Assembly: GCA_000993025.1 (NCBI GenBank)
Contig: LBVJ01000017.1
Span: 1 to 32,928 of the forward strand
Reading direction: 5' to 3'
DNA from: Candidatus Woesebacteria bacterium GW2011_GWA1_38_8
Lineage (GTDB): Bacteria; Patescibacteriota; Microgenomatia; UBA8517
DNA: 32,928 nt
Shown: positions 22,939-32,910 of the stretch, one piece after another
Position numbering within the stretch: position 1 is the stretch's first letter
How the letters are laid out: every line of letters begins with the position of its first letter
Position numbers and translations under genes: made by a program
Notes under the pieces: model-generated
What the model saw: the letters and a program-made list of their open reading frames with translations, nothing else
Databases searched by the model: none
Told to the model about the DNA's origin: nothing

Positions 22939-22960
22939 AAGCAACTTTTAACTTTTTAAG

Positions 22961-23045
22961 TGCTGGAGACAGGATTCGAACCTATGTAGCCCGTCCGGGC
23001 GCCAGATTTACAGTCTGGTGCGATTGTCCACTCCGCCACTCCAGC
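22961..23045 (-). tRNA. tRNA-Tyr (GTA)
   Basis: Reverse strand GCTGGAGTGGCGGAGTGGACAATCGCACCAGACTGTAAATCTGGCGCCCGGACGGGCTACATAGGTTCGAATCCTGTCTCCAGCA; long variable arm, anticodon GTA, no encoded CCA. Confidence 0.95.
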
Positions 23046-23062
23046 ATTATTATCTATCGGGA

Positions 23063-23089
23063 TGCGATTGTCCACTCCGCCACCTCAGC
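23063..23089 (-). repeat. 5'-end fragment of tRNA-Tyr (partial tRNA duplicate)
   Basis: tgcgattgtccactccgccac (23063-23083) identical to 23019-23039 in tRNA-Tyr, then a diverged acceptor strand. Confidence 0.8.
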
Positions 23090-23119: not shown

Positions 23120-23140
23120 GTGAGCCGGCAATAGGATTCG
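23120..23140 (-). repeat. 3'-end fragment of tRNA-Thr(TGT)
   Basis: gtgagccggcaataggattcg, 21-bp exact copy of 23199-23219. Confidence 0.85.
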
Positions 23141-23201
23141 CCGTGCACAGTATCAAAGATACCAATGCGCTATCGAATTCTGTTGACAACAAACGTCAGT
23201 G

Positions 23202-23273
23202 AGCCGGCAATAGGATTCGAACCCACGACCTTCGCTTTACAAAAGCGTTGCTCTACCACTGAGCTATGCCGGC
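23202..23273 (-). tRNA. tRNA-Thr (TGT)
   Basis: Reverse strand GCCGGCATAGCTCAGTGGTAGAGCAACGCTTTTGTAAAGCGAAGGTCGTGGGTTCGAATCCTATTGCCGGCT; full cloverleaf, anticodon TGT, no encoded CCA. Confidence 0.94.
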
Positions 23274-23280
23274 GCTTTTA

Positions 23281-23336
23281 CCGGCATACTTTATTTGCTC
23301 AGTGGCTAAGGTCTCCTTACCACTGAGCTATGCCGG
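23281..23336 (-). repeat. tRNA-derived imperfect palindrome/hairpin immediately upstream of tRNA-Thr(TGT)
   Basis: ccggcata (23281-23288)/tatgccgg (23329-23336), gctcagtgg (23297-23305)/ccactgagc (23320-23328), taagg/cctta; the right arm duplicates the tRNA 5' end (20 bp: 23318-23337 = 23254-23273). Confidence 0.8.
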
Positions 23337-23415
23337 CAGATTATTTTACACACTACTGGAAGAAACAGGATAATTATACTTGTAATGGCACAGTAATTCC
23401 AGATATATTACCCAT

Positions 23416-24731: not shown

Positions 24732-25592
24732 TTAAATCGCAAGAAGAACGGCGGCGATAATTAATACAAGCCCTAAACCTACACCTATATAAGTCGGTGC
24801 GGCAAAACCTGCATCGGGAAGCTCAGCCGAAATGCTCGTTGTCGGTGTTGGAGTTTTAGTGGGTGTGACCGTAAGTCCGCGTGTCGGTGTTGGGGTCAAA
24901 GTGACTTTTGCCGTAGTAGTTGGGCTCGGAGTAGGTGTTTTTGTCGGTACTTTTGTTGCAATCGGAGAAGGTCCGGTTGTCGGAGAAACATAAGTGTCCG
25001 ATGTTACGGTAAAGGTTGCTGTTCCCGTTTCATCATCAGGAATATTCAATATATCGGCACCATTTGATTTTTGTGTAATTATGCTTTGACTGGGATCAAA
25101 ACTCAAAGTAAAAGGATTGGTCTGGGGAATCTGTCCAACTGTTAAACTGAAGGTTGAAAGAAGCGTATCCGTGCTCGTAGCATAACCTGTTGCGCTAATG
25201 TTGGCACACTCAATATCAATCGCAACATTTTGTCCTTCGGTTGTGATACTTTTCTTCGGACAATTCCAGTTTCCGGAATTCTCAATGATGGGATTAATTT
25301 CTATGTTGGAAGTTGTTACTTCAGGTTGGGCTCCGGAAAAAGGATATAAAAGACGTAGGGATATTGACGAAATCGAAACACCCGAAGTATTAAAATATAC
25401 GCTGACAGGAATATCATCACCAACATTCAAATTTCCAAGGGTAGGAAAGAGAGACACTCTCGCCTGACCGCCCGGAACTGCTGCTTTTTCCCGAAGTTCC
25501 TGCTGCTGTCGGATAAGCATTACACCCGCAACAACACCACCTGCAAGTATAATAATAGCTATGACCGAAGCAAAAACATTCTTTTTTGACAT
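24732..25592 (-). CDS. Secreted/surface protein with cohesin-like domain, Thr/Pro-rich stalk and C-terminal LPDAG + TM (start placed at MSKKNVF)
   Basis: N-terminal TM, NVGDDIPVSVYFNTSGVSISSISLRLLYP region, PTKTPTPSPTTT stalk, ELPDAGFAAPTYIGVGLGLVLIIAAVLLAI. Confidence 0.65.
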   Translation of the reverse strand: MSKKNVFASVIAIIILAGGVVAGVMLIRQQQELREKAAVPGGQARVSLFPTLGNLNVGDDIPVSVYFNTSGVSISSISLRLLYPFSGAQPEVTTSNIEINPIIENSGNWNCPKKSITTEGQNVAIDIECANISATGYATSTDTLLSTFSLTVGQIPQTNPFTLSFDPSQSIITQKSNGADILNIPDDETGTATFTVTSDTYVSPTTGPSPIATKVPTKTPTPSPTTTAKVTLTPTPTRGLTVTPTKTPTPTTSISAELPDAGFAAPTYIGVGLGLVLIIAAVLLAI

Positions 25593-25647
25593 GTAGATGA
25601 CATCATTAAAGCACTTTTTATATTGATGTTTCAAGAGGTATTTTTTT

Positions 25648-25686
25648 TGAGCCCAAGGTGGGAATTGAACCCACGACCCTCTTCTT
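25648..25686 (-). repeat. 3'-half fragment of tRNA-Thr(GGT)
   Basis: 39-bp exact copy of 25750-25788 (anticodon-stem 3' side through discriminator). Confidence 0.9.
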
Positions 25687-25751
25687 TAGACGTTAGTCGA
25701 CGAAGTATCAAGAAGCTTTAGCCGGTGGAGTTAAAGTTGTCCTACTTTGTG

Positions 25752-25823
25752 AGCCCAAGGTGGGAATTGAACCCACGACCCTCTTCTTACCAAGAAGATG
25801 CTCTACCACTGAGCCACTTGGGC
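25752..25823 (-). tRNA. tRNA-Thr (GGT)
   Basis: Reverse strand GCCCAAGTGGCTCAGTGGTAGAGCATCTTCTTGGTAAGAAGAGGGTCGTGGGTTCAATTCCCACCTTGGGCT; anticodon GGT. Confidence 0.94.
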
Positions 25824-32877: not shown

Positions 32878-32910
32878 GGGACGGTTCTGATTTAGATACA
32901 GTTTTGATAA
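32878..32910. repeat. Second copy of the REP-like element, without a visible transposase in the window
   Basis: gggacggttctgatttagatacagttttgataa, identical to 30088-30120. Confidence 0.75.

Follow-up and report, generated by a model that had tools for sequence, protein, structure and literature searches.

The window, by which we mean the whole analysed stretch of 32,928 nucleotides from a Candidatus Woesebacteria genome (G000), carries on its minus strand an intact tRNA-Thr(GGT) gene and, 63 bp downstream, an exact 39-bp copy of its 3' half. The earlier note had described this arrangement, and both the coordinates and a repeat search of the window agree with it. The search returned a 43-nt direct repeat, 98% identical and with a spacing of 102 (25644-25686 and 25746-25788), whose exact core of 39 bp (25648-25686, the same as 25750-25788) leaves a spacer of 63 bp. 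An exact 39-mer at a distance of 102 bp is far beyond chance. The locus contains the following features:

25751-25823, minus strand: intact tRNA-Thr(GGT), called by ARAGORN and Rfam (72.1 bits); read as the functional (inner, or replacement) copy
25648-25686, minus strand: exact 39-bp repeat of the 3' half, from the 3' strand of the anticodon stem to the discriminator; read as the remnant of an outer, split tRNA-Thr(GGT)
25687-25709, minus strand: anticodon-loop insert of the outer copy, GATACTTCGTCGACTAACGTCTA; related inserts occur in five other genomes
25710-25749, minus strand: rest of the spacer, read as a degraded part of the outer copy
25710-25715, minus strand: CTTCTT, 5' strand of the anticodon stem
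25716-25736, minus strand: D-arm-like hairpin

The hairpins drawn earlier for this spacer, a D-arm-like CTTTA..TAAAG and a CTTCTT..AAGAAG arm with a 23-nt loop, are indeed present in the letters. For positions 25710-25749, neither a direct nor an inverted origin was significant, and the stretch before the insert is too degraded in this genome to tell whether it arose as a direct copy. An inverted copy of the 3' half was considered as the source of the spacer; its signal was weak in G000 (p 0.063, or 0.015 without the stem) and it is not claimed. Rfam at gathering thresholds found tRNAs only, and no group I or group II intron core.

Five relatives (G010, G032, G039, G008 and G042) from the same family, which also contains named Candidatus Woesebacteria genomes, likewise have a 3' half after tRNA-Thr(GGT), and the anticodon-loop insert of each ends GTCTAAAG, like that of the window. 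In four of them (G008, G042, G039 and G032), the D-stem and anticodon stem of the tRNA reappear ahead of the insert as a direct copy, at a significant level; the unit is therefore a broken tRNA and not a new hairpin. The genus mate G001 has a plain tRNA-Thr(GGT) with no copy. A search of the GTDB contig collection, from which the window genome's own records may be omitted, turned up the exact insert-plus-tRNA pattern three times only; all three records are Woesebacteria, and there was no match in viral contigs. The exactness of the window's copy had been taken as a possible sign of constraint, but by itself it does not show this: the fragments of G010, G032 and G042 do not match the current tRNA but an earlier tRNA type that a relative has retained. 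In a further genome, G047 (L123), the 3' half of tRNA-Thr(GGT) occurs three times in tandem, each time with an anticodon-loop hairpin.

At several loci in these bacteria, complementary split halves of an outer tRNA surround an intact tRNA. In G032 and G010, the intact tRNA-Thr is preceded by the 5' half of a tRNA-Thr(GGT) and followed by the 3' half; the intact gene is therefore nested inside a split one. When the flanks were joined, with the inserts omitted and the anticodon filled in by hand, so that the filled letters count in the identity figures, the G032 sequence matched an unbroken tRNA of G013 at 72/74 positions and its own inner gene at 49/75, while that of G010 matched an unbroken tRNA of G001 at 67/76 and its inner gene at 50/76. 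The ARAGORN tRNA call on these joined sequences is likewise partly by construction. The nested loci with these unbroken counterparts, Thr(GGT) of G032 and G010, have no GIY-YIG gene in the stretches read.

The cleanest case is tRNA-Ile(GAT) of G063, in which outer halves comprising positions 1-33 and 34-73 flank an intact tRNA-Ile. Joined with nothing added, they form a tRNA-Ile(GAT) with 7/7 acceptor pairs that is identical to the inner gene at 56 of 73 positions. Similarly, the halves of tRNA-Ile(TAT) in G032 join after a 2-nt AT overlap is dropped, and tRNA-Ile(TAT) of G009 is split at the same place. The window's own genome offers tRNA-Cys, with the order outer 5' part ending CTG, GIY-YIG gene, intact tRNA-Cys and outer 3' half beginning CAAAAC; this outer tRNA is split exactly in the anticodon loop. 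The outer and inner tRNA-Cys are nearly identical where they overlap, so that a duplication and an incoming tRNA are indistinguishable here. Inverted repeats with arms of 10-14 nt surround the inner tRNA at four of nine nested loci, a set picked by the analyst beforehand, against 2 of 222 others. As a separate observation, the split tRNA-Ile anticodon loops of G000, G009 and G032 share similar inserts of the form GAC-hairpin-GAC (L143, L215, L164, L167).

Partial tRNA copies recur genome-wide. The share of tRNAs with their own 5' end copied upstream or their own 3' end copied downstream was 17/44 in G000, 8/47 in G032 and 14/46 in G009, and in two other families it was 3/45 and 7/43. With the threshold unchanged, wrong-end or reverse-strand controls yielded none in G000, G032 and G063, one in G009 and three in G088. 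Over the 92 tRNA genes of G000 and G032, a control survey gave scores of up to 80 for the expected end on the expected side, and never more than 21 for either control (wrong end, reverse strand). Paired 5' and 3' copies of the same tRNA showed only a mild excess (16 against 9.8 under independence). Within the window's family, 5' copies often stop in the D-loop and 3' copies often begin in the T-loop, each beside a conserved core. Among 281 genomes of the class, the exact T core turned up only in the window's family, and its hairpin covaries; the D core is also dispersed away from tRNAs. The window contains further examples of such copies:

23201-23273, minus strand: tRNA-Thr(TGT), the window's second case, flanked on either side by partial copies
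23318-23337, minus strand: 20-nt exact copy of the tRNA-Thr(TGT) 5' end that stops in the D-loop and forms an arm of a near-perfect palindrome
23122-23140, minus strand: 19-nt exact copy of the tRNA-Thr(TGT) 3' end that begins in the T-loop, beside the conserved core GATAGCGC..GTGCACGG
23063-23089, minus strand: 27 nt copied from the 5' end of tRNA-Tyr(GTA), lying upstream of that gene (22960-23045)

GIY-YIG genes lie between tRNA copies. Across six genomes with tRNA maps, 17 of 27 small GIY-YIG ORFs, counted by hand from listed positions, were within 150 bp of a tRNA, against an expectation of about 3% (binomial 7e-20). Four GIY-YIG genes stand between a 5' tRNA copy and the intact tRNA; besides tRNA-Cys of G000, the order 5' copy, GIY-YIG gene, intact tRNA occurs at Arg(TCT) of G032 and at Gly(TCC) and Asp(GTC) of G063. 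PF01541 was matched at three of these loci, with E-values of 1.8e-17 (G000 Cys), 5.4e-15 (G032 Arg) and 3.2e-15 (G063 Gly). Copies lying 220-600 bp away were found on 4 of 21 sides with a GIY-YIG gene, compared with 2 of 428 sides without one and 0 of 449 controls, and in G010 a T core 1.4 kb from tRNA-Gln bounds a segment that holds a GIY-YIG gene. A nearby nuclease is missing from most partial copies, and tRNA copies accompany only some of the GIY-YIG neighbours. No GIY-YIG gene was present at the window's tRNA-Thr(GGT) locus or in the stretches read of the relatives with the same insert, and a tree of 18 GIY-YIG proteins gave no clear grouping by target tRNA.

In the most likely reading, the window's fragment is what remains, after decay, of the 3' half of an outer tRNA-Thr(GGT) into which the unit that supplied the intact gene had inserted, splitting it. 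Whether that unit was a homing-type element, which split the older gene at its anticodon loop and brought the intact tRNA-Thr(GGT) with it, is in our judgement evenly balanced. Under such a scheme, a free-standing GIY-YIG endonuclease would cut in the D-, anticodon or T-loop of a tRNA gene, and repair would install an element carrying a complete replacement tRNA or else the missing tRNA end from which the gene could be rebuilt. The essential tRNA would survive because the element carries that replacement or missing end, and the partial copies would stay behind as direct repeats. In the window's genome, the outer 5' half and any nuclease gene would since have been lost, and the outer copy would have gained further short inserts. 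We infer that both the cutting and the mobility would be the work of the GIY-YIG protein, and the same mechanism would extend to tRNA-Thr(GGT), a locus without a GIY-YIG gene. A point against homing is that the D-loop and T-loop copies have conserved palindromic cores of their own, and these copies could stem from another process.

Known systems resemble parts of this picture. SegB of T-even phages is a free-standing GIY-YIG homing endonuclease whose cutting in tRNA loci promotes segmental duplication (PMC13096335). It offers a precedent in which a GIY-YIG enzyme is associated with tRNA loci and with their duplication; as with SegB, the GIY-YIG genes here adjoin tRNA genes, but they belong to bacterial chromosomes, their units are bordered by partial tRNA copies, and intact tRNAs lie within split ones. 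A second precedent is given by the inserts in rRNA genes of CPR bacteria, which sit at the tops or bases of stem-loops, are often short and uncharacterised, and are not introns where they encode GIY-YIG proteins (PMC11270868). Both kinds of insert occupy stem-loop sites in genes for structural RNAs of CPR bacteria; those in rRNA genes interrupt the gene where it stands, whereas those in tRNA genes bring a replacement copy.

The other origins that we weighed account for parts of the same evidence. The earlier note had offered a tRNA-mimic RNA as one reading of the unit, and a functional tRNA-like RNA made from the fragment would find some encouragement in the exact T-arm letters of G000, in the spacer hairpins that can be drawn, and in the covariation of T-type hairpins elsewhere (11 two-sided cells against 3.6 shuffled). 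However, the 102-nt unit folds no better than its dinucleotide shuffles (MFE -21.7 against a mean of -22.0, z 0.09) and scores only 14 bits against the tRNA model, and it was on folding and model scores that the mimic was dropped. Moreover, the 5' part of the unit is a degraded tRNA copy in relatives, the T-loop carries inserts in G039 and G042, the T-arm is broken in G008, and the fragment is absent from G001 and from most of the family; we consider such an RNA very improbable.

The note's other reading, an att scar of a lost element, fared better in part: there is an insertion-type scar at the anticodon loop, and in relatives elements do lie between split halves, but what lies there as the "element" is for the most part a further complete tRNA, in some cases accompanied by a GIY-YIG gene, and the loci read showed no tyrosine-integrase island between the copies. 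PMC9897764 and PMC4383910 describe tRNA-integrated islands that leave an intact tRNA and a displaced 3' fragment with breakpoints in loops. The copies here share the displaced fragment and the loop breakpoints, and the breakpoints in the anticodon and T-loops, the restoration of the gene and the direct repeats of about 19 and 38 nt running from loop to gene end would all suit att sites of since-deleted islands. Unlike such islands, however, most spacers here measure 20-130 bp, nested loci hold a whole tRNA and not just a 3' end, many copies are of 5' ends, and no integrase-bearing element was seen between copies among the ORFs read at the loci examined; we consider integrase scars unlikely. 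Not very likely either is an origin by replication slippage and template switching at tRNA stem-loops, together with dispersed palindromic repeats, giving partial tandem copies that decay neutrally, with the GIY-YIG neighbours a separate matter. It would fit the tandem 3'-half arrays of G047, the tandem units that extend past the 3' end in G009, G008 and at G000 Cys, and the arms complementary to the copy in 9/18 upstream and 8/25 downstream cases (p<=0.05). Against it stand the outer halves, which are no fresh duplicates, as they pair with one another and depart from the inner tRNA at about a quarter of positions, as well as a related insert in five genera and GIY-YIG genes within copy-bounded units. 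For the short copies, of which there are many, integrase scars and slippage are both possible, and several processes may be acting.

Tandem units at a tRNA locus are also familiar from the RtT repeats of the E. coli tyrT operon; these units contain the last 19 bp of the tRNA and thus resemble the 19-nt T-loop copies described here. To our knowledge, no nuclease is involved in RtT repeats. They differ from the copies here in having a known processed RNA product, according to PMC4986893, which cites Bosl and Kersten 1991.

Returning to the homing-type origin, we suggest, with somewhat less than even confidence, that CPR bacteria may host a class of selfish elements that break essential single-copy tRNA genes at their loops, carry a complete replacement tRNA, which would leave one tRNA gene nested within another that is split, and so steadily replace the host tRNA set. 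Our literature search, which was not full, found no paper describing a tRNA-breaking element with a replacement tRNA. If true, the small CPR genomes would be reworked through their most essential RNA genes, with host tRNAs swapped by homing. This would explain the clutter around tRNA genes that can mislead annotation, and would provide a testable case of a selfish element compensating for its own damage.

Several further elements were observed. The window encodes a Y1 transposase of the RAYT type (PF01797; 30140-30772, minus strand) flanked by GGGACGGTTCT / AGAACCGTCCC repeats, and a further copy of the longer repeat lies near 32880. Mobilisation of the tRNA-associated repeats by RAYT was rejected: the GGGACGGTTCT repeats that flank the transposase do not resemble the tRNA cores, and a Y1 transposase at E<=1e-5 may be missing from genomes that have the D core, such as G016, G011, G029 and G093. 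In G088 (L248-L263), similar folded elements of about 110 nt end in a tRNA 3'-end copy and lie downstream of the Lys(TTT), Leu(CAG), Arg(TCT), Leu(CAA), Tyr and Glu(CTC) tRNAs; they have no Rfam match and comprise two hairpins, each seemingly with G-A/G-A internal loops. Finally, the gene downstream of the window's fragment (24732-25634, minus strand) encodes a C-terminal LPDAG-like motif and a hydrophobic tail, and its product looks like a surface protein.
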